Origin: a virus
DNA length: 44,402 bases
Direction: 5' to 3' (one strand)
Virus record (IMG/VR): IMGVR_UViG_3300020220_000101
Span: 1 to 44,402 of that record
The translations under genes and the position numbers were made by a program. The notes under the pieces are model-generated. The model did no database searches and was not told the DNA's origin. It saw only the letters and a program-made list of their open reading frames with translations. The number at the start of each line of letters is the position of its first letter. Position 1 is the first letter of the stretch. This document shows, in pieces, positions 13,339 through 36,719 of the stretch.

Positions 13339-13360
13339 TTATATATTCTCTCTACTATGA

Positions 13361-13368
13361 TATTTATC
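13361..13368 (-). promoter_or_regulatory. Late promoter variant GATAAATA for the 717-aa gene
   Basis: The minus strand reads GATAAATA, overlapping the stop codon of the subtilase gene and 22 nt before the 717-aa gene ATG at 13338. One base differs from T4 consensus, as allowed in the cyanophage NATAAATA form. Confidence 0.55.
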
Positions 13369-15906: not shown

Positions 15907-15929
15907 GATGGTTATTCTTTTTCCTTTAG

Positions 15930-15937
15930 TATTTATG
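15930..15937 (-). promoter_or_regulatory. Late promoter variant CATAAATA for the 295-aa gene and protease
   Basis: The minus strand reads CATAAATA, overlapping the stop codon of the giant gene and 24 nt before the ATG at 15906. It would let the genes after the 18-kb giant be transcribed independently of it. Confidence 0.6.
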
Positions 15938-18900
15938 TTTGGTCTAAAGTTAATTGGGTATTATCTATTGTTGCAGAAGTACTATCAAGAGTTGGATTAA
16001 ATCCAGTTGGTAAATCGGGAACAAGATTATCAACTAGAACTTCAGGATATACATATCCTGAACCAGAGTTTGCCACGACTACCTGATATACACCAACTCT
16101 TGCTAAGATTTGCCCATCAAAACCAGTTGGTGATAGGACGTTAACAGTTGGTCTTGTTATATATCCAGATCCAGGTGCAGTTACCAAAGCAGTATCAATT
16201 CTTCCTGGAGTAATGACTGCAGTTGCTTTACCATTTCTACCTTTAACAGATCCAGAGTATTCAAATGTTACAAGTGAATTAGATGATTCAATAACAGCAA
16301 CAGTACGATTTGAATCTTCACCATCAATGAAGATTTCATCTCCAATTTCAATCGGTGGAACAACAGTTGCTGCAACAACGTCTGCATCAGAACCAATATA
16401 TGAGAATGCTACGAATGAAGATCCAGCACGAGGAATTTCTGAGAATGTAATTCTTGAACCAATTAATTTAAATCCAACCCCAGGTTCCTGAAGAACACCA
16501 TTGATAGCAACAATAATATTATTTTCAGGCAGAATAATATTTGATTGAACACCTTGAGTAATTGTCAGTGAGTAGAATACTCCATTAAATTTAAGGTTGA
16601 ATGAACTTCTAAGTGAATCAAAGTCAAATGAGATATCATCTAACAGTCTTAGTTTACCAATATAATATGCATTAAACGTAGATCCCGCAGGTGGAGCTTC
16701 AGTGAACTGAATATTATCTGCAAAAATAGTATATGCATAGTCTGCTCCAGGTGGTTGTAGGATACCATTAACAAATACTAATAAGTGACCATCAGAATCT
16801 GGGAAGTATGGAGTTCCATTATTGTAAGTTAATTTGAATGATACTGTACTTCCATCAAAACCTCTTGCATATCTATTGACTCTTGCTACTACTTCAGTAG
16901 GATTAATATTGATTAATTTTAATCCACCATTTAATAGTAACTGTTGATTTGATAGGAAGGTTCCACTTACTTCAGTTAACCATAACTTAAAGTTTCCTCC
17001 ACTTTGCTCAATTCTAGTAATTTTGCCAGAAGGTGATGATGTGGTAGTATTGACTGTAAGAACCTGACCAAATATTTTTGGTTGAAGTGTTCCAGGTTGG
17101 AATACACCAACTACAGAACTTCCAGTGTTTACATCATTATCAAAATTGCTTGTTTTGTTGCCAATAAACATTGTACCAGTTACGGAATCATATGAAATGA
17201 CAGTTGCATATTGACCTGTAGGTAAGTTGTTAACAATAACATCTAGTTTATCACCTTGTAAGAAAGTGTCAGATGGATTTCCACCAGTAGTAACTGTACT
17301 TAAATTAAGTACTAGTTGAGTTACAGTAGATCCTCTTAGATATTCTCCAATTATAGGAGCATTAAATCCTACAGCATCAAAACAGGATAACAAGACTTCT
17401 GATTCAGATGCATATACAAACTCACTATATGAGAACCCACCTTGAAGTGTTTCTGTATCTAGTGTTAGTGTACCAGAAGTATTTCCGAGTATTGCTCCAG
17501 AATTGTAATTCCATTGATTAATTTTTGCAAAAGCAGCAGAATTTTCCGAATAAATTGGACTACCAGTTGAGAATGTTCCCATCATTGGTTTTAGCATCAT
17601 TTTATTAGATACTGTAGTAATAGTACCAGTAGCACCACTAGTATTTCCTGTTAATACATCACCAACTTGTATACCAGGAGAAATAGAAATTAGATCCAAA
17701 TAGGTACTACCATTAGTTTGATAAACGATAGCAGTATTATTTAATGCATCCTCAACAGTTTCCCCAGTAACAAATTTAGGAGGATTCTGCCCACCACCTA
17801 GTGTGATAGTATATCTATTGTATAATTTTCTAATTTGATATTTGTTGTATTGCAATGCTGAAATTTCTGCAACCGATGTTGAAGTTTCACCATATATAAA
17901 TGCTGATGGTTCGAATGAAATTGAGTACGGAATAGGAATTGTTCTAGTTGCATAAGTTTTTGATGGAACCTCTACCCCAGCATCTCTAGTAATACTAGTG
18001 ATGTTTGCAGGAGTATTAATTACAAGCTTGTAGATAGCAATTAATGTATCAATATAAGTTGAAGTATCACCAACAGCCAATGCTTGCTCACTATATCTTG
18101 GTTGGTTAGTAGTAGGTCCTAATGGATTTAATGTTTGAGTAACTGCTTTGTTTGCCCAGAATTTAATTCTATCCAAGTGGAATTTAAGATGGACTGGATT
18201 ATATCCACTGAAAGCAATAAAATTATAGAACGCATCTAACCAACTTAAGCATCTCGCATAAGATTTAGCATTGCCATTTGTAACAAGATCATACAACATG
18301 TCAGCAATTATATCAAAACCAAAACTAACTGTTCCAGGATATAGTGGATATGCTTGTTTAGTATCGTTATATGCTTCATTTGCAATATAACTTCTATTAA
18401 ACAACAAGAGTTTTGCAGCATTTCTTCTATTCTGTGAACTATACTGAGCAGATTCCTCAGAAATAATACCTAACAGTAAGTCAAATAGTGTTGAGATTGC
18501 AGAAGTTACATTTGCACAACCGTTTGGATTTTGATTAACTGGATCTCCAGTTATAGACAAGTTTCTATATGGTTGGACATTTGTATATAATGCAACATAT
18601 GCCCCTGATGGAGTGTTCGTAGAGTTTTTAGCATAAAGTAAATTGTTAACTGCCTTTTGAGCAATTGGTTTTGCCAACTCTAAAGATTTATGCATTGCTA
18701 ATAATTCATCTTCAACAAATAAAATATTAGTGTTAGTATCAAGGTATGTATTAAATGCATCCAGGGTTGCATTATTACCACCAGTAATAAGATCCGTCAT
18801 CATCGCAGGAATGAGATGATCTCTCAAATCCCGAATGCATTTCTGCGTATTTGGATTTGTAAATAGATCATAAACAACACCAGTTGGAACATATGTCCAT

Positions 18901-21900
18901 TTGAAATATGCCTCGATTCCCTCAACAACTTCTTCTGCAATATACTGTCTATTAAAATACAGTAAATCTGCAGCATCTCTGAATCTATCTCCAGTTGGTG
19001 CTAATATGTCTGCAATAACATCACATAGATAAGTTACTTCATTAGTAACATTTGCACTATATGTAGACACCACTGGAATAATAATAATATCCGAATATAG
19101 TGTAGTTATAGTATTTGTCAGAATACCATTGATTATTTCTCCAATTTTCTGGTATGCATAAACCGATTGTAGTAATTCATTTCCAATAAACTTCACCCCA
19201 CCTGATTTTTCAAGATATGCTTTGGCAGTATAAACAGTTTGATAATTACCACCAAGATTTAAATCGTTAACGATACCATCTACAATTAATCCTGCATCTC
19301 TAGCACAAGTATCTGTACCTTCGTATCCACCTGCTTCATCCCCTGGCATAACCAGTAGTGGATATTTTGCTTTTAAATATCCCATCATTTCATCAACAAT
19401 AAACTGTTTGTTCTTCCTTACATAATCAGCTGCTTGTCTGTATTCTTCTCTAGCAGAATCAATGACCTCAACAACTAATTTTTTAGACAGAGGATCTATC
19501 TGACCAATAACAGAAACAGAAGTTCTTAACGCATCATATGTTGCCTCAACATAACTTTCTGGATAAATATCAGTTACTCCACTTGGACCATCAAAGTGGA
19601 ATAATAGAATATCTCCAGAATCACCTTCATGTGCTTCTACTTGTGGAGTGAAGTTTGCAGTATATCTATTAATTGCTGATATTCTCAACTCATCGATTAA
19701 ACCACGGAAACCAGTACCATCTTGATATGTAGAACCTATTCTTAATGTTTGACCAACATAATTTAAGTCGTCTGCAAATGTTTGAGTTTGAAGAACTCCA
19801 TTAATATACATCTTAGTAGTTAAATTACCTTTAACCACAGCAATATGAGTCCAAGTATTTACTGGGATTGTTTCATTAGAAATAATCCTATTAGCACCGT
19901 TTGTATAATATACAACTTGATTTAATGTATTGATATACAATGTAGGAACAACCTGAGCCCCTGGGTTTGATGATCTCATATCAAGTAGATATTGTGAAGT
20001 GGCATTTACTGTTTTGTAAATCCACATTTCCATTGTCCAATTATTAGTACCCAATCCAAGTTTTTCTGGATTATCAATTTTAATATTATTTGTACCAGTG
20101 TTGCTTACTCCAAAGGCAGCTGAGGAAATACCAAACTTATTGCTATAAGTTGGTAATATCTTATTAGGTACAATTTTTGTAGCAATAATAGTATCTAATG
20201 TTAACCATAAAGTATCAATTGCAGATGCAATATCAGCACACTGTGGAGTTGATGTATCTACAGTAATTGTCGTATCCTTATTTGGTGCTATAGTTGTATA
20301 TTTTGCAAAATTCAATGTAAAGATTGCAGAACCTGTTCCAGCAGTAGATGGATTTTGGTTTAATAATAATGTAGTATCTGATAATATTGAAACAACACGG
20401 GTGTCGGATGAGAATCCAGTTCCAGTAACATCCATACCTTCAACAATACCAACAGTTGAAGTTACTGTTAATGTAGTTGATGCAGCTCTAACTGTATTTG
20501 GCATGGTAACAGTAAAGTTACGCATTGCTGCAATCATTAGATCTCTACCATACTTATATGCTGCTCGTGATTGTTCTTCTTCTCCAAGAATAAATTGAAT
20601 GTTTCCATTGCCATCTACATAGTAATCACCTGCAGTTATAACTGAAGAATTACCACCATACAATAAATCGAATACAAATGCTTCTACAATCTTTCCAATA
20701 TCTCTCTTACACTTAGTTTCTCCTGGTGAAAAATCACCTGGATTTTCTGCAGGAATTCCTGCAATACTTCCACTAGTAATAGCAGTAGTTAACATGGTGA
20801 ATAATGTAGAAATTGTATTCTTAACATTCACGCATGAACTTTCATTTGTGTTTGATGACGTACCTGACCCTGGAGTGGGGTCAGCCGTAATTGTTAAATC
20901 TTTGTATGGTAATGCGTTTGTAATTGCAGAATAGCACAGATCTCTTGCTGCATTAAAAGCAGCTACAGCTTGTGCCTCTTCACCAACTAAACCATTATTA
21001 ATTGGTGCACCATTGGTAAAATAGTATAATGTCGATTGTCTGGTCCACTTGTTACCACCATCATATAAATCTTGAGCAATTGATAATACAATCAATCTTA
21101 TGTCTCTCTTACACTTATCTGGACCACCAGGAACTGAAAATGTAGGATATTGTGATATAAGTTGATTGTATGCATTGATAACAATGTAATCAAGATTTCC
21201 ACGTATTAAGTTTGCCGCATCTTTGTAACGATATGAATTTGATGGGGATTTTGGATAATAAAAATCTGGATATTTTCTAGCAATATAACCAATAATTTCT
21301 TCTTTGATTAACTCAGTGTTTGCACTAATTCTATTGGCTGCATCAACAAACCTAAAATTAGGTGTAGGTGTGAGTCTTACTTTTGGTGTTCCTGTATTAG
21401 TGATCTTCCAGTTTGCTAGTCTCTCATTAGCAGTGAATACTCCAGTTGGTGGTTTTACATACAAATAAGCATTTGCTGTGTTTACGCCAATAATTTCTGC
21501 TTGAGTTCCACTAGTTAATCCTGTCAGAGTAAATTCTGGGAAGAAGGTGCCTGCTGTTTTATTCTTGTAAACAATCTTTCTAGATCTAATTGTTTCACCA
21601 GTAGTAAATGCACCATCTGTAATAGTAATTGAATTCAGAGAATTTAAGTTACCATCATTTAATGCTGTTGTTAAAATTGCAACTAGAGTATCAATATTAG
21701 ATCTGATGTTTGCACATGAACCTGGATTTGTGTTTCCTGGTGTTCCTGATGTTGGAGATGGATCGAATATAATACTCAGATCTTGCTGAGCACCAGGAAT
21801 TGTTAATCCATTTACTACAGCCAGTTTCATGTAGTCACGAGCTTTATTGAACCCAAATACTGACTGTATTACTTCTCCGTCTAATCCATAAGATAGCAAT

Positions 21901-24900
21901 TGAGTGTCACTACTAAAGTATTTTTTAGTGTTGGTAACAATGTTAGCATTACCAGCAGATGCTAAATCATTACATACCGCATCAATTATATATCCAAGAT
22001 CTCTTTCGCATTTTGCAGTACTATTATTTGGGAAATCAAAATCTGGATATTCTGCTTCAATATCATCAATTACCTGATTGATGATTGCAGTTCTATTTAA
22101 TTGAATTAGTTTCTTGGCATCGAGTCCTCTATGGAAATCTGGTACATTAGCATTAGCATATGAAATTTCTACATTTCTAATGTAATCACCTTCAGACCAA
22201 GTTCCAGATGAGTTGTCGTATACTAAATTAATATTTTGGGCAAACTCTGATAGGGGGAAGTTTTGGTTGACAAATTGAGTATAATTATCAACTTTTGCTG
22301 CACCAATAATTGTTTTACTAACATCATCAGTAATAGTATTGGGATTTTGTGGTAGAGGCAGTCTCTCAAAAATCAGACCAAAGAATGAAGATCCAGTGTT
22401 AATCGTGAGACTTGAGACAACTTGATTTGTTTGAGGATCTCTATATGGACCAATCTTTGTAACTTTTGCAACGATTCCAGTTTGTGCACTGATGAAGAAA
22501 TCATTTAGTTTAATTTCAAATAAACCTGTTTCATACTTAGATGTACCAAAAGTTTTACTAATAATGAGTCTATTAGTTTGTGAACCAATATTCCATACAC
22601 CAGGATTTGAGAAAGGCAATGATGCAATTGATCCACTAGATAATGCATTAGTTAAAATTCCAACAATAGTAGCAATTGCAGATCTAACATCAGCACAATT
22701 GTTTGGATTTAGGTTAGTATTAGTATTTGGATTTGCTCCTCCATTAGTAGCGGATACTTTATCTGCATAAATATCAACATCTTTAAATGGAAGTTGATTA
22801 TTAACTGCTTGCTGCATATAATATACTGCTCTGTTGAAAGCATATATTGCTTGCTCTTCTTCACCAAGAAGACCATTTACGAGTGGAGCACCATTGTTAA
22901 AGTATTTTTTAGTTGTCTCAATTATATTTGAATTACCAGCACCCTTCAAATCTAAACGAGTAGCATCGACGACATAACCAATATCTCTCCTACACTTATC
23001 TGGACCACCAGCTCCCCCAGGAACTGAAAATACAGGATATTGTGTTTGTAGATCATTAAATGCTTGCTCAATGATATATGTTCTATTACCTTCAATTAAA
23101 TTAGCTGCATCTTGGAAACGGTTTCCACTTTGTGCTGTTAAATTATTCCAAGCACTAATTTGTGTTGGGAATTCTGGGAAATATGTTGCTAAGTTAATTT
23201 CTTCAACAATTGCAATTTTTTTGTTGAGATTTGTAATCTGCTCACCAAACTCAAAAATTGTATCCTGAATAACAGTAGAAACAGAGACTAAGGTAGCATT
23301 TAACCCTGTAGCAGATGCCACAATAGTTTCATTGACCTGGAAAGATCCAACAACATTAATTACATCTAGATAAGACGTTGTACTAGAAACAACAACCGCA
23401 GTTGCGTTTGTAGTAATACCTCTAATCTGTTGATTGATTTCTGGTAAAATACCTGAGATGTTAGAAATTGCAATTCTTTTTACTTGTACAGGTTCAAACT
23501 CAATTTCTCTATAAACTACAGAAGCAGGTGGCTTTGGTGGTTCAGTAAATTGGATATTACCATTTGCAATCGTATATGATTGTACAGGAGCTTGTACAAT
23601 ACCATTGATAAGAATCATTGACTGACCAGTTGAAGCAATTGCTTGGTCTCCATTGATCTTAAGTGGGAAAGCTGTTTTTTCTCCATCAAACAGTGAGGAT
23701 ATATCATCAATTTTTTTGACGACTGATGTCAGAATTTCTTCTGATGATGTAAGTCTCTTATTTCTAAAGATAACATCACTATTATTAAATTCTGAATAAA
23801 TTGGTTGAGCAGCAGCAAAGTTAATAATCTCTGCAAAATTTGTAAATTCTGAAATGTCTACTCTCTTAGTAAAATCAGTAGCAACTTTTCTACCAGAAAG
23901 ATCCTTACCACCTGTTAGATTCAATTGACCAAAGATATTAAATCCAGCAGGGTGGTTAATTTTTCTTACAGTATCTCTCCAAGTGTTGATTGGAATTTCA
24001 CTATTAACCACATATGCAAAGTCTTGATAAAAATAGGAGTCTTGAATTTTTTGTACAATCTCTGATGGTTTACCAACGTTATCAATAAATTTACCAGTAG
24101 TTTGTGTTAATGAACCAATATTCAATGTTCCTACTGCAGTATTGATGTTATCAATGGTTCCACTTGCTTTAGAAATAATACCAGTGACTTTTTCACCGAC
24201 TTTCCAATCCCCAGTATAATCAACTACTTTTAATAGTCTTGGACCAATCTGCCAACCATTGTTAGTTGAAACATAACCAACTGCAGAAGGGTCATCTAAA
24301 TTATTACCTTGGAATACCTTTTCACCTTGTAAGAATCTAGAAGTTTCTACAATTGCTTCTGCCTTACCACCAAATACCTCAGTAAGTAAAATCTGCTTAC
24401 CTGAACCATTGTTCAGGAAAGTAATAAATTGACCATTCAGTGCATCTTGAGCTGTGAGAGCAATTCTTAACTGGTTATCTTCAAGACCATTTATACTACC
24501 TGCAATAGCAAAATAAATTTGACCTTCAACTAACGATGTTAAACCTGCCGAAGATGGTTGTGGTAATTGTCCTATTGTAGATCCAATGTCATCTGCTCTT
24601 AAAGAAACTTCAGCTCCAGTACCGATTCCATGAGGGAAATTAAACTGGAAATACCCAAGGTCAACGTTTACCACATATACAAATTCTGATTTCAATACTA
24701 CTTTTGGTTCAGATGAATATCCAGATCCAGGATCTTTAACAAAAATTTCCTGAAGACGATTGTTTTTAACTGTTGCAACAGCAATTGCACCAGTTCCACC
24801 ACCACCTTCTATAATTACTGCAGGAGCAGTTGTATACCCAGAACCAGGATTGGTTACTTTAATTTCTGTCAATACTGATGTATTAAACAGTTGTAAAATT

Positions 24901-27900
24901 GTTGGGAAAGTAATTTCTGGTTGTAGTGTATAATCATGAGGGTAGTCAAAACCAAAGTTATTGTTCTTTAACCTTTTAATTTTACCAACTTGAGTTCCCT
25001 GCAGGAACACAGAAGCACCATTACCTTGAGGAGGAATAACTACGTCCAGAATACCTCCAGAACCTGCCAAACTTGGTCCAAGAATACCAGGGACAGCATC
25101 TATTTGAATAAATCCTGTAGTATATCCCTTACCAGGATCAATTAGATCTACATCAGTGATAGTTCCAGATACAGGATCACCACCCAATTCTACTGTAATA
25201 TTAACTTTTCCACCTTCACCATCTCCAGAGATTGGAACATCTTTATATACACCAAGAGCGTATTCAGTTCCACCATTAGTAATATCAATCCTATCAATCT
25301 GTCTATCAGAAGCTATATTAGTAACGATTGGCAGTTTCTTATAGAATCCACCTTTGTTTACTAATTTAATAGAATTGATTGGACCTGCTGCTTTGATAGA
25401 AGTTGTTGAATACGAAGTCGAATCTAAGATTACTGGTCCTTCTGGTTCTCTTTCTAATTGGAATTTAAACGTTTTTGAAGTTGGAGTTGCAGTGATTCTA
25501 AATTTACCCTTATATGGAGTCTCAACAACGTCAATATACGAATTAACACCCACTGGACTATCTGCACCAGTTCTTGCAGGATCAAAGTAATATGAGATAT
25601 TTGTTACATCACCAATAGTTTTAAATCTAACATAAGGAATTACACCTGGTGGATCAAGTCCTGGATTTCCACTTCTTGTAATGTTGTTAAATGAATATTC
25701 CAACTTGTATTGATTATCTTTTGAAAATGATAGGTAATATCCTGCATTAGATGAATCTCCAACATCAAAGATATATTGATGTCCTTTAACAAATACTAAA
25801 GATGGATGCTTTGCGTAAATATTAACAGCAGTTATAGAAGTGCTGGTAATAGGATCTAATTGAGTTACAGATCTTAATGCAAAAGTAAATTCTCTAGTAT
25901 TGATAACTCTATTGACAAAGAAACTACCATTAAACACATTATATAAGAATCCTTCAACAAAGATAATATCTTTTGCAAGATAATTGTGTGCTCTTGATGC
26001 AACAACGTAAAGATCTCCAGTATTCGTATTTGATACGGACTTAACAATTTTTCTAAGATTTGACTTTAAGGTTATTTTTGTAACTGCAGTGAGACCTGTT
26101 AATGTAGCTACAGTATGTGCAGCATTAAATGAAATGTTAACTCCATTAAATCCAATAGGTACAATATCTCCAGGTAGGAAATTAGATCCCGCAATAACGT
26201 CAACAATTTTTAGGACATAATCATCGGCACTATATGCCTTAAATTCTTTTGTGCCAGCAACTAGATCACTCGTATAATTAGATAGAGGAATTGTAAAAGT
26301 GCCAATATTTGTTGTAAATGGAACTTCCAAAAATGTATATTCAAATTCATTAATAGTATCGACAGAATCTTTAATTCTAGATGTAGTATTTAAAGTTCCA
26401 AAAATTTTACCAATGGTAACATAATCATCACCAGCTTCGATAATCTTACCATAAGCACTAACAACGTTTTGTGCATTTTGTCCAGTTCCTTGAACAGTGT
26501 ACCATTCAAGTTGTGATCCAACTTTAAATCTGCTTGGTTGATTAAATGTAATTTTTTTAACAATATCAACCTTTGTTACTGAGGAATCTTTAAGATAATA
26601 CTTATCAATTACATTAGCAGATATCTTAAGTGTTTTTCCAGCAGGTGTTGGAATGGTTGCAGTCCTAGATGCCCAAGTTTCTGTTCCTGAAGTAAATGTG
26701 TAATTTCCAGGCAAGTGAAGGCTAACGGCATCAGAGAAATCCAATAACTGATAACCAGCACTACCAGGTGAAAACGGACCTACAGTTGCTACTAAGTCTT
26801 CATCAATTGAATATGTAACATTTGTTATTAGTACACTGCTAATAGTGTTTAACGAAGTAACAGCATATGATCCAAGTTTAGTATGGTTGTTGTCAAATTT
26901 AATTAAAGAAGAAATATCATATGTTTTTCCAACATTAAAGTGTAGTAATAATGAAGTACGAGCATCTTTATCAAATGATGCTGTTGGAACTGTAAAAGTA
27001 GTTGTATATCTTGCAAGACCCTTAGTGACTCTAACTTCATCAATAAAACCATTTAGATCATATGGACTGTTTCCTACAATATCTCCACCAAGTTTAATAC
27101 CTCGTGCAGGATAGTTAACTGTATCAACAGCACTAGTTGGTTGAAGAACACCATTAACAAATAGTCTAGTTGTTCCACCTGATCTAGAAACTGCAATGTG
27201 ATACCATGTGTTTGTTACAACTGTTGTGACAGAGAGTAAATTTATACCACTACCTGTTATGTACCTAACAACACCAGCTGCGGTAACGTCAATATATGGA
27301 GCCACGTCAGAACCAGATGTTCTTTGATCCCATAAAACTCTAGTGTTGGATAGATTATTTAAACGAGCCCAAAACTCAATTGTGAAATCACCTGTTTCAA
27401 ATCCATATCCTGCATTTGATTCTATGGTTACATAATCACCATTTCCATCAAAGGATACGGAACTTCCTCCAAATTGATATTGTGCTGTTGAAATAGCAGC
27501 ATTTCCAACAAATGTTGGTGTTACAATATCAGATGTAGTTACACCAAACACCACCACATCTGCAGAACTATCTGAACAAATACTATATCCTTTCCAAGCA
27601 CCATTTACATTAATTCTAGAATCATTTAAAATAGTACCATTGTGCTTAAATTTAACTAGATCCACAAAGGAACCAGTTGAAGTTTCTACACTTATACCTA
27701 GAGTAACATTATTAAATACATCGACTGTATGACCAACTCCTTTTAATCTAGTGAACGTAGTTGCTGCTGGAGATATCCTCTTTGCCCATACTGGTTTGTC
27801 GTATTGTTCTAGATCAATTCTAAACAGAGTAACTTTCTCTGGTTCAGATGTAGCTACATTAATTTCTGTAGCATATAGGTACATGCCTTCATAATCATCA

Positions 27901-30900
27901 ATCTTAATTTTTGGATTAGTAAATTTGTAGTTTGTTGGGTTTTGTATTCTTCTTCCCCAATCATGAATTAAATCAATATTATCATATGATAGTCTTCCAT
28001 AGATAATATCTTCTCCACCTATAATTCCAGTCCAATAAACGTAACCGTCATGGGCATAGATATCAGTGAGTACTTCTTCTTCTGAATCTGTAGTTAATTT
28101 TCTTTTCTCTACAATATCACTCAGTTCTGACATTAATACAAACCACATATCATTGCCAGATTCACTATTTGTATCTGTATAACCACCAATAATTAGAGCA
28201 TCTAATTCATCAGACCAATCAATTGCAGTAGCATAATCTCTTCTAGTATTTCCAGAAATACCTGCAAGTTCTTTTTGCCATTGGATGATACCATCAGGTT
28301 GATTATTACTATTAAAACCAGAAATATACTTAGCAACTAAGACATCAGGATTATATGTTAAGTTTACAGTATTTTGAATTGTATTTCCAACAACATAAAT
28401 TGTGTGTGGGTTTGTATCTACAACAACTAATCTATTCCACACTGCAAATTTTACTCCAGCCGTTGGCGCAGATGGTGTTAGGGTTCTTTTCCATACTAAT
28501 CTACCATCATTATTAAACTTTGCTAGTACTGCAATACTATCTCCATTATCCCTAATAAATCTACCACAAGAATAGATACTTCTATCTTCAGCAATCTTAG
28601 AGTCTTGCCACTCAATATAACCACCAGCACCATCAAATTCTGTAGCAAAATAATTTGCTTTTTTGAAAATTTGAGGATGAGTTACTCGAATTTGTGGAGG
28701 ATTATCTACATCATATGAATTACCAGAATTTATAATGTTAACTTTTGAAATTCTTCCTTGTGATTCTAAACTGATATCCAATAATGCATCTTGACCATCA
28801 CTTGTAATTAATTCATATTCTGCTGGAATATCATTATTATAACCAATACCTTCTTGGATTACTGCTACTTGCTCCAATCCAGAAACAGTTTTAACTTTAA
28901 ATGATTTGAAGTTAGTGTCTAATGCAGCCTCGGTATCAACAATTACAATGTCACCAATTGCTAATCCATGGTCATCTTCTGTGGTAATTGTTGCGATAGT
29001 ATTGACATCATCAAAAGTAGTTGTATAATTTAGAATTTTTGGTCCCTTCACAGACTCTACTTTTGCAGATGCACCAAATCCATCAGTTCCTTCATTATCA
29101 AATGTAACTTTATCGTTGACTTTATAACTGACACCTGGATTTTCAATGACAAATCCATCAATTTGTGCAGATTCAAATTTAGTAATAGTATCTACTTCAA
29201 TATCAACTTTTGATTCAATATCAACAGATGGGAAATAATCAAATAGTTCTAATGACTGCTCTTCTGTCAATTCGAGAATTTCATCTTCTTCATCGGGTAC
29301 AATTAATCCATCATTGTTAGAATCTTGAATTTCAAAGATAATAGTTTCACCATTCTCAGTAGTAATCGTATCTGTTCTTTGATTTGGTTGTCTATCTGTA
29401 TCAATATCTACGTCTTCATATGGGTCTCTAAATCTTACAACATCTCTAGGAATATTAAATTGTACAGCAGTTTGTGATAAGTTCCACTTATCTACTGCTG
29501 AATAATATTGAGGTCCTAGAATATATGGGAATACAGGGTTTCCTTCTGCAGATGCATCAATAGTTACAAAGTATGCATATGTTCCGTTTGGAAACTCAGG
29601 AGTTTTACAGAATCTTCCATTATATTCATCCAAATCTCCTGATCCAAAACCATATTCATAATCTTGTATAAATGAACCAGCTGGATGGAATGATAAAGGT
29701 GGACCATCAATTCTTTTTGGAATAGGATTAGTATCTACGTTGTATATAATATTTGCTTTTAATTTATATGAAGTTACTAACCTACGTACTCCTTTAGATG
29801 AATCTGTGGGATCTGTGAAACCATATGGTCCGTAAATAGGATTTCCATCAAATGCCCATCCAAGAATTGGTGAATGTGAGAATGTTCCTTCTTTTTCTTT
29901 AATAACTTGCTGAGAATTTTTGAATACATTATCTCCAAGGACATATCTCAATGTTTGTGGATTTGATATGTGTGCATATTCACCACCATACTGAGTATTA
30001 TAACCAGCAAATACATATCCACGAGCAGAATCCAATTTAGTTTTTAGTTGATATTCTAAATCATATACCCATTGGAATACATTTGTTTTAAAAACCGCAC
30101 CTTGTCCAATAGATTCCAAACGAATACTAGTTCTACCTTGAGTATAACCTACACCTCTATTGATAATCACAACACCAATTACTTTTCCTTTATCTTCACC
30201 TATTGTTCCAATAATTGCTTTTGCCTTTGCACCAAATCCATCACCATTAATATAAACATTAGGAGCAGTAGTATATCCTTCACCAGAATTAATTACAGCA
30301 ATTGAAACTACTCTACCATTAATAATGATTGGTTGTGCTTCTGCTTTTACACCAGAACTTAAAACAATAGCTGGAACGCTTGTGTAATCTTTACCAGTTT
30401 TCGTAACAGTTACTTTTTTAATAGGTCCTCTAACTTGTGCAGTTGCAGTAGCACCATTGCCGCCACCACCAGAAATGCTGATAAGTGGTTCTGATGTATA
30501 TCCTTCTCCTGGAGTTTCTACTAAAATTTGAGTAACCACACCATTGGTTACAATTGCCTTTGCAGTTGCACCAGCTCCTCCTCCACCAACGATAGACACC
30601 AATGGTTCTGTTTTATATGCTTCTCCACCTGATGTTACATCAAATGCTGAGATAGCTCCATTAACTACTACTTCAGCAGAAGCTCCTGTTCCACCACCAC
30701 CTACGAATGTCAGGGCAGGAGGTGAAGAAGCATCATATCCCTCTCCAGGAACAATAATATCAACATTAGTAATTCCACCATAAACTACAGATTCTTGTGA
30801 TTTATATGACCATGCTGTTACACCATTAACCCAAGTTGCAATTGCACCTGGTTGGATATTGTATCTTACAGAAGTTGTATTTGCTACTAATGGGAATCTA

Positions 30901-33900
30901 TAAAGTTTTCTCTGATTTCCTGGAATGAGTGCGGAGTTTACAAATGGTCCAATTTTATAGTTAGGAATTCCAGTTGCTGCTACATATACATATTCATTAT
31001 TAAAGAAAGTATTTTGTATATTACTTGTAAAATTAGTAACTAAGTTATTAACTTGAATATCATCACTCTTTCCTTTATTTAAGTCAACTGAAATTAAAAT
31101 ATTTCCTTGAGGTGATAACTCAGCAGGTTGAGGTAATTCATACGAAAAAACAAAATTACTAATACGTGCCGAAACTAAGAATGAACCATTATAAACAATT
31201 GGATTTGCACCATAAACAGTTACTTGGTCACCAACTAGAAGACCATGAGGATTTGTACAGGTTACCGTTGCAGTTTTGTTGTTTAATCCCCCAGGAACAA
31301 TCTGTTCAATTTTAACTAATTTCTTGACGTTAAATAACCAATTAGTTACTTTTTTATCTTCTGTAGATGCCCCCAACTTGGCAACATTTAATTTATCTCC
31401 AGGCAAATAATATGAACCAGAATTTGTTAATTCTGTAGTTGCTGCTTCTGCAATCCCCACCACTTTCAATTTAACTTGATTTGGAGTTCCAGCATTTGCA
31501 TATAGGAAAATATCAGAAGTGATGGATGTTCCAGCATCCCAATTAGAAGCTACATTGTTCTTAGAACGAGTACATTCTAAGAACTGATTTAGTGTCTTTT
31601 CTTTATATTGAATATATTCCTGAACATCATTTTCTGTGCCTACAATAATGATGCCATTTCTCTCTGGCCATCCAAGAGTGGAGTCAACAGTTAATATGTT
31701 AGTATCTTCATCAACACCTTCTACTAACTTTGTTTTGTATGGGATAATAAAATCACCTACTTTAGTTTCTTCTGAAATTGCAATTTCGTAAATTTGATTT
31801 TCACCAACAAAAATTGAAATTACATTTTCAACAAGAGCAGATGCATATTTTACATGACTATCTACATCATCTTCATACTGCGTGATAATAGTATTGATTA
31901 AATTCCCAGGATCCCCATCAATTAATTTAACACGTAAAACGGTATCTACAGACCATGTAGCTGCTGATGGCTTGAATAATTCTTCTTTGGGATAACTTAC
32001 TGAAATATTCTCACCAAATATTACCTTGAAGAGATATTCTAAAGCATTTTTAGTTCCCTTTGACAGATAGAAATCTTTTATTGATTTAATAATCTGAGCA
32101 GAATTTACTTTAGTATAATCAATATTAAAAGATGGCAAATATTGATCTACAAATCTTTTAAAAATTTGAAGTAAAAATAATGAATCTAAATTTTTAACTA
32201 TGGCACCCTGTCCATGTTGTCTTGGACGAGATGCTAATTCATTTCTAAATACCTGCTCTCCATTATCATCATAATTAACTACATTACTTACACCCCTACT
32301 AACATCAACAAATGCTGAGGGGGTGTATTCGGATCCTTCCGTAAGAATTGTAAATCCAGTAACTTCACCAACTCCAACATTTGTGGATGCTTTTGCTTCT
32401 GGTGGTGGGGAAATGAATACGGTTGGTGGTTCTGATGAAGAATATCCACTACCAAATGCTGTAATATTAATATCTGTAATTGTACCATTAAAAATTGTTG
32501 CAGCTGCTTTGGCTCCTGTTCCACCGAAAGCAAATCCATTAATATCTTTTCTATTATCGACAATGTATACTGATGGTGGATCAATATATCCAGTTCCACC
32601 ACTAAGAATTTCAATATTAGTAACACTACCATTATTTACAATTACATCTAAAATTTGTGCTCCGACAGGATCAATAATTCTAACTCTAGGCTCAAAAGTA
32701 TATCCGTTTCCTCTAGAAATAACTTGGAAACCACTTACTTGATCGTCAGTTAATACTGCTCTTATAATTGCTTGATTACTACCTGGCGTTGTTGGTGGAT
32801 CAACATAAATTATTGGTGGATTTTTGTATCCATTTCCACCCTTAAGAATCGATAGACTTCCTCCAAGAATTTTTCCCTGTCCATCAATTGCTGCTTTACT
32901 TGTAATTTTTGCACCACCAGGATTTGTAAATTTAACTTTTGGTGGAGTAAGATAACCAGAACCACTATTTAATAGTTTAACCTTGGATACAGATCCAGTC
33001 TGATCATCTATAACAACTTCTGCTACAGGTCTAGTTCCGTTCTCGGGTGGATCATCAAAACTAATTAAAGGTGGATTTAAAGATGTGTAACCTGTTCCAC
33101 CATACAATAGATTAAAGGTTTTTACACCATCAATCAACGCAACCGCAGTTGCATCTTTTCCAACTTTTGCATCTATAGTAACTTTTGGAACAAAATTAGT
33201 AGAATATCCAGATCCACCATCAATGACGATAATAGATGTAACTTTACTATTTTCAACCTTAGATATGATTTGTGCTCCTTTACCACTATCTTTAGCAGTA
33301 TACTCAATAGATCTTATGAAGAGTTTTGAACCTGGTGATGGAGTATCTGTTAGTAAAATTTCATTTTTTGATGTAAATACATAATCCTCATATGGAGTCA
33401 ATAGCACTTTATCCAATGTAACTATTGATAGGATCTCTGATCTTGAAATATATGGTTGCTGATTTGTTAATAAACGATATTTCTTGGTATTTTCTAAGGT
33501 AGTAATTTCATCGAGTGGTTTAACAGCATTCTGTGCAAATCCAAGAAGATATTTGATGTAAGTTCCACCATCTCCATCAGCAGAGGTTTTTGGTCTAGGT
33601 GGAGTAGTAAATATAATATTTGTTCCTGAAATATTATAATCAATATCAGGTTTTAAAATTTTTCCATATAGTGAGACAATTAAATGCTCTTTATCAATAG
33701 GACTAACTGGTTGTCCAGCAACACGTAACGCATACGTGTTTCTCATAATTGGTGGTGTACCAGTTGGAACTAACTGTGGTAATAATGATTCTAATACTTG
33801 GTATCTTGAATCAAATTCAACAAGACTAATCCCAGGAGTTAAAACTACATTGGGGGACTTTGTTATACCCTCATAGTAAAATACTTCGTTATCAATTAAG

Positions 33901-34181
33901 AACGAACCATCTTTCTCTACAAAACCAGTAACATCTTCAACAAAGACAGTGGAGTCTTTATATCCAACATCATCTAACAGAATTGTAGAACCTGTTAGTG
34001 AAATAGGATTATAAGTGTTAACATTTAGATATTCACCCAAATTGTTAACAATGTCGTATGGACGACCTGTTTTCTCTTGTGATTTATAATATTCTTGAAG
34101 CAAGGTATAGAAAATTTCATTCTCTTCTTGAATAAAAAGAGGTTGTTGATCTTTAACCCTATCGGATACCTTAATATTCAT
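15933..34181 (-). CDS. Giant 6082-aa mosaic virion protein in the gp7 position
   Basis: One uninterrupted 18.2-kb frame starts at ATG 34181, with AGG about 7 nt upstream. Approximate layout: wedge-like N-terminus 1-300; Gly-Ser-Gly-Tyr repeats 310-620; a FYLSKGTKNALEYLFKVIFG segment near 700, as in large-phage baseplate proteins; repeats 1133-1355; YHYH domain about 1430-1555 (SPILGWAFDGNPIYGPYGF and LDEYNGRFCKTPEFPNGTYA); probable beta-propeller 1860-2215; LamG-like domain 2235-2415; repeats 2960-3165; alpha-helical cassettes 3687-5355 with a second LamG-like domain at 4710-4865; C-terminal beta region ending in two more Gly-Tyr repeats. It lies between gp6 and gp8, where T4 has gp7 (1032 aa). 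I therefore infer an expanded wedge protein carrying adhesin modules. There is no signal peptide or membrane segment. Confidence 0.85.
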   Translation of the reverse strand: MNIKVSDRVKDQQPLFIQEENEIFYTLLQEYYKSQEKTGRPYDIVNNLGEYLNVNTYNPISLTGSTILLDDVGYKDSTVFVEDVTGFVEKDGSFLIDNEVFYYEGITKSPNVVLTPGISLVEFDSRYQVLESLLPQLVPTGTPPIMRNTYALRVAGQPVSPIDKEHLIVSLYGKILKPDIDYNISGTNIIFTTPPRPKTSADGDGGTYIKYLLGFAQNAVKPLDEITTLENTKKYRLLTNQQPYISRSEILSIVTLDKVLLTPYEDYVFTSKNEILLTDTPSPGSKLFIRSIEYTAKDSGKGAQIISKVENSKVTSIIVIDGGSGYSTNFVPKVTIDAKVGKDATAVALIDGVKTFNLLYGGTGYTSLNPPLISFDDPPENGTRPVAEVVIDDQTGSVSKVKLLNSGSGYLTPPKVKFTNPGGAKITSKAAIDGQGKILGGSLSILKGGNGYKNPPIIYVDPPTTPGSNQAIIRAVLTDDQVSGFQVISRGNGYTFEPRVRIIDPVGAQILDVIVNNGSVTNIEILSGGTGYIDPPSVYIVDNRKDINGFAFGGTGAKAAATIFNGTITDINITAFGSGYSSSEPPTVFISPPPEAKASTNVGVGEVTGFTILTEGSEYTPSAFVDVSRGVSNVVNYDDNGEQVFRNELASRPRQHGQGAIVKNLDSLFLLQIFKRFVDQYLPSFNIDYTKVNSAQIIKSIKDFYLSKGTKNALEYLFKVIFGENISVSYPKEELFKPSAATWSVDTVLRVKLIDGDPGNLINTIITQYEDDVDSHVKYASALVENVISIFVGENQIYEIAISEETKVGDFIIPYKTKLVEGVDEDTNILTVDSTLGWPERNGIIIVGTENDVQEYIQYKEKTLNQFLECTRSKNNVASNWDAGTSITSDIFLYANAGTPNQVKLKVVGIAEAATTELTNSGSYYLPGDKLNVAKLGASTEDKKVTNWLFNVKKLVKIEQIVPGGLNNKTATVTCTNPHGLLVGDQVTVYGANPIVYNGSFLVSARISNFVFSYELPQPAELSPQGNILISVDLNKGKSDDIQVNNLVTNFTSNIQNTFFNNEYVYVAATGIPNYKIGPFVNSALIPGNQRKLYRFPLVANTTSVRYNIQPGAIATWVNGVTAWSYKSQESVVYGGITNVDIIVPGEGYDASSPPALTFVGGGGTGASAEVVVNGAISAFDVTSGGEAYKTEPLVSIVGGGGAGATAKAIVTNGVVTQILVETPGEGYTSEPLISISGGGGNGATATAQVRGPIKKVTVTKTGKDYTSVPAIVLSSGVKAEAQPIIINGRVVSIAVINSGEGYTTAPNVYINGDGFGAKAKAIIGTIGEDKGKVIGVVIINRGVGYTQGRTSIRLESIGQGAVFKTNVFQWVYDLEYQLKTKLDSARGYVFAGYNTQYGGEYAHISNPQTLRYVLGDNVFKNSQQVIKEKEGTFSHSPILGWAFDGNPIYGPYGFTDPTDSSKGVRRLVTSYKLKANIIYNVDTNPIPKRIDGPPLSFHPAGSFIQDYEYGFGSGDLDEYNGRFCKTPEFPNGTYAYFVTIDASAEGNPVFPYILGPQYYSAVDKWNLSQTAVQFNIPRDVVRFRDPYEDVDIDTDRQPNQRTDTITTENGETIIFEIQDSNNDGLIVPDEEDEILELTEEQSLELFDYFPSVDIESKVDIEVDTITKFESAQIDGFVIENPGVSYKVNDKVTFDNEGTDGFGASAKVESVKGPKILNYTTTFDDVNTIATITTEDDHGLAIGDIVIVDTEAALDTNFKSFKVKTVSGLEQVAVIQEGIGYNNDIPAEYELITSDGQDALLDISLESQGRISKVNIINSGNSYDVDNPPQIRVTHPQIFKKANYFATEFDGAGGYIEWQDSKIAEDRSIYSCGRFIRDNGDSIAVLAKFNNDGRLVWKRTLTPSAPTAGVKFAVWNRLVVVDTNPHTIYVVGNTIQNTVNLTYNPDVLVAKYISGFNSNNQPDGIIQWQKELAGISGNTRRDYATAIDWSDELDALIIGGYTDTNSESGNDMWFVLMSELSDIVEKRKLTTDSEEEVLTDIYAHDGYVYWTGIIGGEDIIYGRLSYDNIDLIHDWGRRIQNPTNYKFTNPKIKIDDYEGMYLYATEINVATSEPEKVTLFRIDLEQYDKPVWAKRISPAATTFTRLKGVGHTVDVFNNVTLGISVETSTGSFVDLVKFKHNGTILNDSRINVNGAWKGYSICSDSSADVVVFGVTTSDIVTPTFVGNAAISTAQYQFGGSSVSFDGNGDYVTIESNAGYGFETGDFTIEFWARLNNLSNTRVLWDQRTSGSDVAPYIDVTAAGVVRYITGSGINLLSVTTVVTNTWYHIAVSRSGGTTRLFVNGVLQPTSAVDTVNYPARGIKLGGDIVGNSPYDLNGFIDEVRVTKGLARYTTTFTVPTASFDKDARTSLLLHFNVGKTYDISSLIKFDNNHTKLGSYAVTSLNTISSVLITNVTYSIDEDLVATVGPFSPGSAGYQLLDFSDAVSLHLPGNYTFTSGTETWASRTATIPTPAGKTLKISANVIDKYYLKDSSVTKVDIVKKITFNQPSRFKVGSQLEWYTVQGTGQNAQNVVSAYGKIIEAGDDYVTIGKIFGTLNTTSRIKDSVDTINEFEYTFLEVPFTTNIGTFTIPLSNYTSDLVAGTKEFKAYSADDYVLKIVDVIAGSNFLPGDIVPIGFNGVNISFNAAHTVATLTGLTAVTKITLKSNLRKIVKSVSNTNTGDLYVVASRAHNYLAKDIIFVEGFLYNVFNGSFFVNRVINTREFTFALRSVTQLDPITSTSITAVNIYAKHPSLVFVKGHQYIFDVGDSSNAGYYLSFSKDNQYKLEYSFNNITRSGNPGLDPPGVIPYVRFKTIGDVTNISYYFDPARTGADSPVGVNSYIDVVETPYKGKFRITATPTSKTFKFQLEREPEGPVILDSTSYSTTSIKAAGPINSIKLVNKGGFYKKLPIVTNIASDRQIDRIDITNGGTEYALGVYKDVPISGDGEGGKVNITVELGGDPVSGTITDVDLIDPGKGYTTGFIQIDAVPGILGPSLAGSGGILDVVIPPQGNGASVFLQGTQVGKIKRLKNNNFGFDYPHDYTLQPEITFPTILQLFNTSVLTEIKVTNPGSGYTTAPAVIIEGGGGTGAIAVATVKNNRLQEIFVKDPGSGYSSEPKVVLKSEFVYVVNVDLGYFQFNFPHGIGTGAEVSLRADDIGSTIGQLPQPSSAGLTSLVEGQIYFAIAGSINGLEDNQLRIALTAQDALNGQFITFLNNGSGKQILLTEVFGGKAEAIVETSRFLQGEKVFQGNNLDDPSAVGYVSTNNGWQIGPRLLKVVDYTGDWKVGEKVTGIISKASGTIDNINTAVGTLNIGSLTQTTGKFIDNVGKPSEIVQKIQDSYFYQDFAYVVNSEIPINTWRDTVRKINHPAGFNIFGQLNLTGGKDLSGRKVATDFTKRVDISEFTNFAEIINFAAAQPIYSEFNNSDVIFRNKRLTSSEEILTSVVKKIDDISSLFDGEKTAFPLKINGDQAIASTGQSMILINGIVQAPVQSYTIANGNIQFTEPPKPPASVVYREIEFEPVQVKRIAISNISGILPEINQQIRGITTNATAVVVSSTTSYLDVINVVGSFQVNETIVASATGLNATLVSVSTVIQDTIFEFGEQITNLNKKIAIVEEINLATYFPEFPTQISAWNNLTAQSGNRFQDAANLIEGNRTYIIEQAFNDLQTQYPVFSVPGGAGGPDKCRRDIGYVVDATRLDLKGAGNSNIIETTKKYFNNGAPLVNGLLGEEEQAIYAFNRAVYYMQQAVNNQLPFKDVDIYADKVSATNGGANPNTNTNLNPNNCADVRSAIATIVGILTNALSSGSIASLPFSNPGVWNIGSQTNRLIISKTFGTSKYETGLFEIKLNDFFISAQTGIVAKVTKIGPYRDPQTNQVVSSLTINTGSSFFGLIFERLPLPQNPNTITDDVSKTIIGAAKVDNYTQFVNQNFPLSEFAQNINLVYDNSSGTWSEGDYIRNVEISYANANVPDFHRGLDAKKLIQLNRTAIINQVIDDIEAEYPDFDFPNNSTAKCERDLGYIIDAVCNDLASAGNANIVTNTKKYFSSDTQLLSYGLDGEVIQSVFGFNKARDYMKLAVVNGLTIPGAQQDLSIIFDPSPTSGTPGNTNPGSCANIRSNIDTLVAILTTALNDGNLNSLNSITITDGAFTTGETIRSRKIVYKNKTAGTFFPEFTLTGLTSGTQAEIIGVNTANAYLYVKPPTGVFTANERLANWKITNTGTPKVRLTPTPNFRFVDAANRISANTELIKEEIIGYIARKYPDFYYPKSPSNSYRYKDAANLIRGNLDYIVINAYNQLISQYPTFSVPGGPDKCKRDIRLIVLSIAQDLYDGGNKWTRQSTLYYFTNGAPINNGLVGEEAQAVAAFNAARDLCYSAITNALPYKDLTITADPTPGSGTSSNTNESSCVNVKNTISTLFTMLTTAITSGSIAGIPAENPGDFSPGETKCKRDIGKIVEAFVFDLLYGGNSSVITAGDYYVDGNGNIQFILGEEEQSRAAYKYGRDLMIAAMRNFTVTMPNTVRAASTTLTVTSTVGIVEGMDVTGTGFSSDTRVVSILSDTTLLLNQNPSTAGTGSAIFTLNFAKYTTIAPNKDTTITVDTSTPQCADIASAIDTLWLTLDTIIATKIVPNKILPTYSNKFGISSAAFGVSNTGTNNIKIDNPEKLGLGTNNWTMEMWIYKTVNATSQYLLDMRSSNPGAQVVPTLYINTLNQVVYYTNGANRIISNETIPVNTWTHIAVVKGNLTTKMYINGVLQTQTFADDLNYVGQTLRIGSTYQDGTGFRGLIDELRISAINRYTANFTPQVEAHEGDSGDILLFHFDGPSGVTDIYPESYVEATYDALRTSVSVIGQIDPLSKKLVVEVIDSAREEYRQAADYVRKNKQFIVDEMMGYLKAKYPLLVMPGDEAGGYEGTDTCARDAGLIVDGIVNDLNLGGNYQTVYTAKAYLEKSGGVKFIGNELLQSVYAYQKIGEIINGILTNTITTLYSDIIIIPVVSTYSANVTNEVTYLCDVIADILAPTGDRFRDAADLLYFNRQYIAEEVVEGIEAYFKWTYVPTGVVYDLFTNPNTQKCIRDLRDHLIPAMMTDLITGGNNATLDAFNTYLDTNTNILFVEDELLAMHKSLELAKPIAQKAVNNLLYAKNSTNTPSGAYVALYTNVQPYRNLSITGDPVNQNPNGCANVTSAISTLFDLLLGIISEESAQYSSQNRRNAAKLLLFNRSYIANEAYNDTKQAYPLYPGTVSFGFDIIADMLYDLVTNGNAKSYARCLSWLDAFYNFIAFSGYNPVHLKFHLDRIKFWANKAVTQTLNPLGPTTNQPRYSEQALAVGDTSTYIDTLIAIYKLVINTPANITSITRDAGVEVPSKTYATRTIPIPYSISFEPSAFIYGETSTSVAEISALQYNKYQIRKLYNRYTITLGGGQNPPKFVTGETVEDALNNTAIVYQTNGSTYLDLISISPGIQVGDVLTGNTSGATGTITTVSNKMMLKPMMGTFSTGSPIYSENSAAFAKINQWNYNSGAILGNTSGTLTLDTETLQGGFSYSEFVYASESEVLLSCFDAVGFNAPIIGEYLRGSTVTQLVLNLSTVTTGGNPSDTFLQGDKLDVIVNNLPTGQYATVISYDSVTGTMFIGNKTSNFDNDVNTGSSVVGVFQPGTLQPKIFGQVLTVNTTTSSPSGKITRIEQSGGNFKLWLTEVSGTFLSNQQLLLNGGLKLININPTEVVARVNRYARGFDGSTVSFKLTYNNGTPYFPDSDGHLLVFVNGILQPPGADYAYTIFADNIQFTEAPPAGSTFNAYYIGKLRLLDDISFDFDSLRSSFNLKFNGVFYSLTITQGVQSNIILPENNIIVAINGVLQEPGVGFKLIGSRITFSEIPRAGSSFVAFSYIGSDADVVAATVVPPIEIGDEIFIDGEDSNRTVAVIESSNSLVTFEYSGSVKGRNGKATAVITPGRIDTALVTAPGSGYITRPTVNVLSPTGFDGQILARVGVYQVVVANSGSGYVYPEVLVDNLVPDLPTGFNPTLDSTSATIDNTQLTLDQT
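18115..23125 (-). repeat. Repeated alpha-helical cassette in the giant gene
   Basis: Six complete and two half copies of a helical unit of roughly 150-330 residues. Half A has the form DAA-x-LI-x-x-N-x-x-x-I then YP-x-F; half B has C-x-RD-x-G-x-IVDA-x-x-x-DL then GGN. Half A starts at about residues 3687, 4014, 4275, 4315, 4911, 5066 and 5250. One half B without its partner lies near 4490. Confidence 0.75.
24690..25310 (-). repeat. Gly-Ser-Gly-Tyr repeat array 3 in the giant gene
   Basis: Four or so units (residues 2960-3165) with cores GGTEYA, PGKGYT, PGSGYT and PGSGYS. The first unit (KDVPISGDGEGGKVNI) closely matches the insert in gp8 (ENVPIKGDGSGGRVSI). Confidence 0.7.
30120..30780 (-). 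repeat. Gly-Ser-Gly-Tyr repeat array 2 in the giant gene
   Basis: About seven units (residues 1133-1355) with cores PGEGYD, GGEAYK, PGEGYT, TGKDYT, SGEGYT and RGVGYT, several ending in the GGGGTGA or GGGGAGA turn. It lies just before the YHYH domain. Confidence 0.75.
32330..33250 (-). repeat. Gly-Ser-Gly-Tyr repeat array 1 in the giant gene
   Basis: About eight tandem units of 35-45 residues (residues 310-620) with cores GGSGYS, GGTGYT, SGSGYL, GGNGYK, RGNGYT, GGTGYI, FGSGYS and EGSEYT, each followed by Pro-Pro and a hydrophobic strand. Confidence 0.75.
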
Positions 34182-36302: not shown

Positions 36303-36719
36303 TTATCCCTTTGTTAGAAGAAAACTAAAGTTTTTCATTACTGGTTGACCAATTATTTGATATTCAACAGTAACAGAAAGTGCATTTAAATCATAACGAT
36401 CATCTTCTACTTCAATATTAAGTATTTTAATTCTTATCTCATTGTTCTGGAGAGAAACTGCAATCTCGTCTCGTATAGCATCAATCATAAATGGGCTATA
36501 ATTTTCAAATAACATACCCATTAAATTACTTCCAAAATATGGTTGGAATAATTTTTCTCCTCTAGCAGTTAAAACTATGTTTCTAACTGACTGTTTTATT
36601 GCCTCTTCATTTTTTAACGTAGAAAAATCACCAGTAACAGGGTTAGACTTAAATGATAAACTAAAGTCTTTGTACCCTCTACTGGTGAATTCTCTTGATC
36701 GGCTGCTAATTCTAGCCAT
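36303..36719 (-). CDS. 25: Baseplate wedge protein gp25
   Basis: A 138-aa protein (T4 gp25 is 132 aa) of the gpW/gp25 family. The core NIVLTARGEKLFQPYFGSNL near residues 45-65 and the following helix (FENYSPFMIDAIRDEIAVSL) are typical. The protein is the sheath-like wedge subunit that starts sheath assembly at the baseplate. A clear Shine-Dalgarno sequence is not visible. The gene starts 3 nt after the stop of the 64-aa gene, so coupled translation is likely, and gp6 follows after 4 nt. Confidence 0.92.
   Translation of the reverse strand: MARISSRSREFTSRGYKDFSLSFKSNPVTGDFSTLKNEEAIKQSVRNIVLTARGEKLFQPYFGSNLMGMLFENYSPFMIDAIRDEIAVSLQNNEIRIKILNIEVEDDRYDLNALSVTVEYQIIGQPVMKNFSFLLTKG

Follow-up and report, generated by a model that had tools for sequence, protein, structure and literature searches.

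Phage T4 encodes the baseplate wedge protein gp7, a product of 1032 aa, between gp6 and gp8. In the virus record analysed here (IMGVR_UViG_3300020220_000101, whose entire 44,402 bases are referred to as the window), a single gene of 18.2 kb follows gp6. Two questions are raised by this locus: whether a core wedge protein has grown or an adhesin has replaced it, and what the helical cassettes within the giant product are.

The giant gene and its neighbourhood

The frame at 15933-34181 runs unbroken on the minus strand from an ATG start and encodes 6082 aa, in agreement with the original prediction. With 6.0% stop triplets on this strand, the probability that a run of such length stays open by chance is about 1e-164. 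An assembly join or chimera, raised in that prediction as a possible refutation, is ruled out as the source of the frame, as independent isolates have the same continuous ORF. Nearly the full length of the protein falls in the PHROGs family phrog_701 (6136 positions, 'virion structural protein'). Upstream of the giant gene lie gp6, gp25 and PAAR, while downstream there are a 295-aa gp9-like ORF, a subtilisin-like protease, a 717-aa repeat protein, gp8 and a VrlC-like protein. The predicted position between gp6 and the gp8 block is correct for gp6, which adjoins the giant directly in the order gp25-gp6; gp8 is not the next gene, being separated from the giant by three smaller ORFs. The main genes are as follows.

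36303..36719, minus strand: gp25 (PHROGs match)
34202..36298, minus strand: gp6, directly upstream of the giant gene (phrog_219)
15933..34181, minus strand: giant gene, 6082 aa, very probably gp7 (baseplate wedge initiator), by its frame, phrog_701, tblastn relatives and gp7 boxes
9613..11148, minus strand: gp8 (E 1.3e-8 to T4 gp8)
2421..9599, minus strand: VrlC-like protein, separate from gp7, assigned by its position after gp8 (its family, phrog_358, is itself nameless)

The protease encoded between the giant and gp8 is a subtilisin-like (S8) serine protease (13364-15022, minus strand; motifs GTHVAGT and GTSMSSPQVAG; phrog_3677 'protease'), and its location among virion genes points to a role in the virion or in maturation. 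A further ORF (38119-41469, minus strand) encodes a 1116-aa protein matching the wedge-subunit family phrog_719, which is also matched by the repeat region of the giant; this type of repeat recurs in several baseplate genes of the window phage.

Most of the domains proposed for the giant from its letters were recovered. Its Gly-Tyr arrays contain 17 GxGY motifs, against 2.3 expected from shuffling and a maximum of 7 in 500 shuffles; the YHYH domain and both LamG-like folds (E ~1e-18) were found by Pfam, and the helical cassettes are present as six good copies and one degenerate copy. The probable propeller had no Pfam match in the giant. The features outside the cassettes are listed below, all on the minus strand.

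32322..33275: N-terminal array of GxGY beta-repeats, about residues 303-620, which lengthens the protein compared with compact gp7s, where box A begins near residue 95
31890..32279: gp7 box A, residues ~635-764, motif DFYLSKGTKNALEYLFKVIFGE at ~704 (PF23786 and profile comparisons)
30072..30806: second GxGY repeat array, about residues 1126-1370 (repeat motif)
29550..29996: YHYH domain, residues ~1396-1544 (Pfam, E 5e-30)
27024..27449: LamG-like domain 1, residues ~2245-2386 (Pfam, E 5e-19)
24657..25184: third GxGY repeat array, about residues 3000-3175 (repeat motif)
23832..24128: gp7 box B, residues ~3352-3450, FYQDFAYVVNSEIPINTWRDTVRKINHPAGFNIFG, found near the C-terminus in compact gp7s
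19677..20099: LamG-like domain 2, residues ~4695-4835 (Pfam, E 9e-19)
16014..18071: conserved C-terminal region, residues ~5371-6056, common to phrog_701

Relatives of the giant protein

A tblastn search with residues 1-800 matched 472 phage records, nearly all of them cyanophages. The same gene is located directly after gp6 in P-RSM6 (25.7 kb), P-TIM40 (22.1 kb), ACG-2014d (20.5 kb), S-WAM1 (20.2 kb) and S-SZBM1 (19.9 kb), and is longer in each of them than in the window. These giant gp7 proteins of Kyanoviridae (phrog_701; 8573 aa in P-RSM6, 7351 in P-TIM40, 6737 in S-WAM1 and 6619 in S-SZBM1) share with the window protein the position after gp6, the box order, the domain types and the size, and their first 800 residues are 42-49% identical to its own. 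All four are longer than the window protein, in which the order and number of the cassettes are different. In isolates, the gene is annotated as 'baseplate wedge initiator' (S-WAM1) or 'gp7' (P-HM2 and S-SSM7). In S-SSM7, two nearby ORFs (11665-20688 and onwards) both carry the gp7 annotation, as if the giant were split in two, and that genome has no cassettes.

The novelty implied for the giant does not hold in view of phrog_701 and these annotations, nor is its product new to virions: the proteomic check suggested with the original prediction has in effect already been done on a close relative, as the 6619-aa homologue of S-SZBM1 was identified in purified virions by mass spectrometry with 71 peptides (PMC9146016). 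The oversized gp7 of marine cyanobacterial viruses is therefore already known, and the new part is the phycobiliprotein-like nature of its cassettes.

The giant protein as an enlarged gp7

Box profiles built from the giants were searched against a database of four sequences, the gp7 proteins of phiM7 (1006 aa), Ps15 (503 aa), Cr30 (767 aa) and T4, all encoded between gp6 and gp8. The box A profile matched the compact proteins (phiM7 3e-23, T4 1.8e-7), as did that of box B (Cr30 9e-16, T4 9e-8), and both boxes occur in the same order in all four. Box A is found at 98 in phiM7, 91 in Ps15, 94 in Cr30 and 734 in T4, compared with ~704 in the window protein; box B lies near 985, 425, 728 and 884, respectively, compared with ~3410. 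The window giant contains both patterns, DFYxxKGTxxxxxxLFK for box A and YQxFSYxI...PI..W....HPaGF for box B. In PDB, the N-terminal profile has a single, weak match, to 'Baseplate wedge protein gp7' (9f4a, E 0.11). No other ORF of the window has box A or box B, and the separate gp7 elsewhere that the original prediction had allowed for was thus not found among them; the 717-aa ORF at 11185-13338 (phrog_708 'baseplate wedge') was considered for this role and rejected, since it has GxGY repeats and lacks a gp7 box.

The two boxes in order, the location right after gp6 and the lack of boxes in other window ORFs support the view that a core wedge protein has grown; the alternative that an adhesin has replaced gp7 is unsupported, both boxes being present in order. 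As the boxes lie towards opposite ends of gp7 in phiM7, Ps15 and Cr30, box A towards the N-terminus and box B towards the C-terminus, the giant has gained an N-terminal extension, an inter-box insertion and a C-terminal extension. Growth thus took place at three sites, with ~600 residues gained ahead of box A, ~2,500 in the inter-box region and ~2,600 beyond box B, and the added residues are mostly repeats and surface-binding domains. In T4-type wedges, gp7 forms a heterotrimer with two copies of gp6. T4 gp7 has both boxes in the same genomic place, but only 150 residues separate them, compared with about 2,700 in the window giant, and it lacks the repeat arrays, YHYH, LamG and cassettes.

A different view is found in the literature, where VrlC was proposed to replace gp7 in cyano- and pelagimyophages, and where a comparison found no match to T4 gp7 (PMC7029224). 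We consider this explanation highly improbable for the window phage, because the two gp7 boxes of the giant stand in the expected order and place, and because VrlC coexists with a compact gp7 in phiM7 and Ps15, where the two genes lie side by side. By its boxes and their order we are confident that the giant is gp7 and not a replacement; we are equally confident of the fold and homology of the cassettes, the conservation of their putative bilin-site residues and the co-occurrence with CpeT, all described below.

Cassettes with a phycobiliprotein-like fold

The original prediction was right about the presence of helical cassettes; it missed their identity as phycobiliprotein-fold domains. The six good copies span residues 3687-5247. 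All copies are on the minus strand.

22620..23123: phycobiliprotein-like cassette 1, residues ~3687-3854; CRRD, Cys 3730; second Cys 3829
21636..22127: phycobiliprotein-like cassette 2, residues ~4019-4182; CERD, Cys 4058/4156
20757..21233: phycobiliprotein-like cassette 3, residues ~4317-4475; CKRD, Cys 4357/4450
20175..20759: phycobiliprotein-like cassette 4, residues ~4475-4669; CKRD, Cys 4491/4648; first helix divergent, internal insertion
18999..19448: phycobiliprotein-like cassette 5, residues ~4912-5061; CARD, Cys 4959/5053
18441..18989: phycobiliprotein-like cassette 6, residues ~5065-5247; CIRD, Cys 5115/5222
18009..18434: degenerate cassette 7, residues ~5250-5391; neither Cys kept

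The first hint of their nature was a Pfam match of the window giant to PF00502 Phycobilisome (E 2.3e-13). When a profile of the six window copies was compared with all PDB sequences, the 60 best matches were all phycobiliproteins (E 1.6e-5), and the same was true of a profile of 78 viral copies (60 best, E 6.6e-6). Searched singly, 26 of these 78 copies matched PF00502, and every other family was matched by at most two. Profile-profile comparison by hhalign with 146 cyanobacterial phycobiliproteins gave P 1.7e-7. A template-free AlphaFold2 model of a cassette (pLDDT 87, pTM 0.87) retrieved only phycobiliproteins among its top 50 Foldseek matches (probability 1.00, TM ~0.6), and a divergent cassette from another contig was modelled in the same fold family with pLDDT 94.6, at weaker E-values of 0.02 and above. 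The likeness seen by sequence search covers mainly 60 residues, which could speak for a chance similarity of helical proteins. Such a coincidence is very improbable, given that sequence search, profile-profile comparison and template-free structure prediction concur with no other family found, and that the controls score lower: the real profile reached 34.8 bits and the best of 20 block-shuffled profiles 24.1, and reversed controls also remained below the real one.

The predicted models show the globin-like fold of known phycobiliprotein subunits. In beta-subunits (phycocyanin, phycoerythrin; PF00502) this fold extends from residue ~34 to the end, as in the cassettes; the N-terminal X-Y helical hairpin (residues 1-33) is absent from the latter, and their alignments begin at phycobiliprotein residue ~34. 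By these models, the cassettes have the fold of phycobiliprotein beta-subunits, minus only the X-Y hairpin. They differ from beta-subunits in their low identity (10-20%), in having only a putative bilin, and in being tandem domains of a 6082-aa virion protein and not stand-alone antenna subunits of 160-180 aa.

Cassettes were found in 362 phage records, all from cyanophages save one named 'Marine', and are also contained in short tail fibres. Two divergent metagenomic cassettes used as queries again retrieved cyanophages, save 'Marine' and 'Caudoviricetes' records and one Actinomycetia phage, in which the match sits outside the cassettes. Among annotated phages, the cassettes are thus confined essentially to cyanophages; they also occur in metagenomic contigs. 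In 194 cyanobacterial genomes, the viral cassette profile found only frames of phycobiliprotein size (163-220 aa), in 28 of them. A scan of genome contigs with cassette 1 as query yielded no relative, and the open-access literature searched yielded no description of phycobiliprotein-like domains in virions.

Residues of the putative bilin site

Phycobiliproteins bind bilin at Cys84 of the motif K-C-x-R-D. The Cys-x-Arg-Asp part of this motif is present in all six good window cassettes and not in the degenerate seventh. Over 174 viral cassettes (about 172 scored), the Cys is conserved in 150/172, the Arg in 134/172 and the Asp in 160/172. The second bilin site of beta-subunits is a Cys immediately ahead of the last helix (beta-Cys153/155). 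All six good window cassettes, and 35 of the 39 full cassettes from isolates and the window, have a second Cys in such a position. In the AlphaFold2 model its placement agrees with beta-Cys153/155; the sequence alignment at this point is weak (i-Evalue 0.49), and therefore the equivalence is suggestive only. The large ORFs of four viral contigs (L039, L051, L055 and L056) hold as many as 11 phycobiliprotein-like cassettes, most of which lack the second Cys.

CpeT and other bilin genes in cassette-bearing phages

The T-type lyase CpeT (phrog_488) is encoded by cassette-bearing cyanophages. It was scored by PF06206, or by a phage CpeT profile for two divergent cases, in 29 phage genomes: 16 of the 17 with cassettes encode it, and the 12 cassette-free phages all lack it. 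The corresponding Fisher P is 2.5e-7 for all 29 and 2.3e-4 within the 22 T4-like cyanophages, values that treat related genomes with ancestry uncorrected. The exception is S-SKS1, with one cassette and no CpeT; the window fragment has no cpeT either. In 12 of 13 neighbourhoods, cpeT adjoins the baseplate hub gene gp5 or is part of a tail-fibre cluster, and in S-PM2, S-CAM3 and S-RSM4 it is found a few short ORFs upstream of a cassette-bearing short tail fibre gene. T-type lyases act regiospecifically at beta-Cys155 (PMC2327270); the site specificity of the cyanobacterial homologue CpcT is for the very Cys position that the second cassette Cys resembles. Phage CpeT has so far been filed as an auxiliary metabolic gene for host phycoerythrin, with no virion substrate known.

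Two other bilin genes were considered. Bilin reductase (PF05996) was rejected as a gene that tracks cassettes over all records, because P-SSM2 and S-SSM7 have it without cassettes. Within 14 cassette-bearing records, it was found in 6/6 Prochlorococcus phages and 0/8 others, which fits, post hoc, a supply of bilin where the host makes little. The S-type lyase CpeS (PF09367) was rejected as a cassette partner, as it occurred only in S-H34 (MT162467), a Cluster C cyanophage without cassettes or CpeT.

Possible role of the cassettes in the phage tail

These observations can be arranged into a model in which the C-terminal extension of gp7 would display six phycobiliprotein-fold domains, and the phage's own CpeT, usually encoded among tail genes, would attach bilin to them during assembly in the infected cell. 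The host might supply the bilin, or, in Prochlorococcus phages, the bilin reductases of the phage. The chromophorylated domains may then act at the host-contact face, either by stabilising a light-responsive binding surface or by binding a host ligand. From the evidence above we infer even chances that phage CpeT attaches bilin to the tail cassettes. Several points count against it: S-SKS1 has a cassette but no CpeT, the window fragment has no cpeT, bilin reductase does not follow the cassettes overall, the second Cys aligns weakly with beta-Cys155, the CpeT association comes from related genomes, and cassettes are also found in metagenomic contigs.

The model has to be weighed against the reading that the cassettes are derived from phycobiliproteins and have lost their pigment, serving as stable helical adhesin or spacer modules with a disulphide between the two Cys residues, or with none, while CpeT acts on host phycoerythrin. 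Published speculation holds that phage CpeT aids host light harvesting (PMC10452541), and the two Cys residues are co-conserved (35/39 vs 0/3), as a disulphide pair would be; moreover, some isolate cassettes have lost the Arg, and the cassettes lack the X-Y hairpin that serves subunit pairing. On the other hand, few residues in the cassette family as a whole are conserved as well as the bilin-site Cys, Arg and Asp; the first Cys persists in many cassettes that lack the second; and cpeT, located among tail genes, tracks the cassettes. We regard the pigment-free reading as a serious possibility, if a somewhat doubtful one. It is improbable that the cassettes mimic phycobiliproteins so that the tail binds host factors recognising these proteins: the shared fold and surface family, as well as the near-restriction of cassettes to phages of cyanobacteria among annotated records, would agree with mimicry, but phycobilisomes are intracellular and the baseplate meets the outer membrane first, and the identity to host proteins is low.

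If bilin is attached to the tail, the cassettes and CpeT might speculatively be linked to light-dependent adsorption. S-PM2, in which this phenomenon was reportedly first described (by Jia et al. in 2010), has 13 cassette matches. The link fits the difference between P-HM2, for which almost no adsorption in the dark is estimated, and P-SSP7, which is not light-dependent (PMC7112961): the former has five cassette matches and CpeT, the latter neither. That most T4-like cyanophages build chromophorylated tails, with CpeT placing bilins on domains of gp7 and short tail fibres and the pigment making adsorption light-dependent, is a bold extension that we hold to be rather unlikely.

Significance for cyanophage biology

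The giant protein shows that a core baseplate protein can grow six-fold with its core kept, and its gp7 identity amends the published opinion that these phages lack gp7. Its phycobiliprotein-like domains are a candidate substrate for phage CpeT within the virion, a direct alternative to the host antenna, and bilin-bearing tail domains are a candidate cause of light-dependent adsorption in some cyanophages. Why cyanophages carry a bilin lyase, and why some of them adsorb only in the light, both become testable questions. If the model is true, cyanophage bilin genes would serve the virion and not only host photosynthesis, and the virus tail itself may be pigmented.
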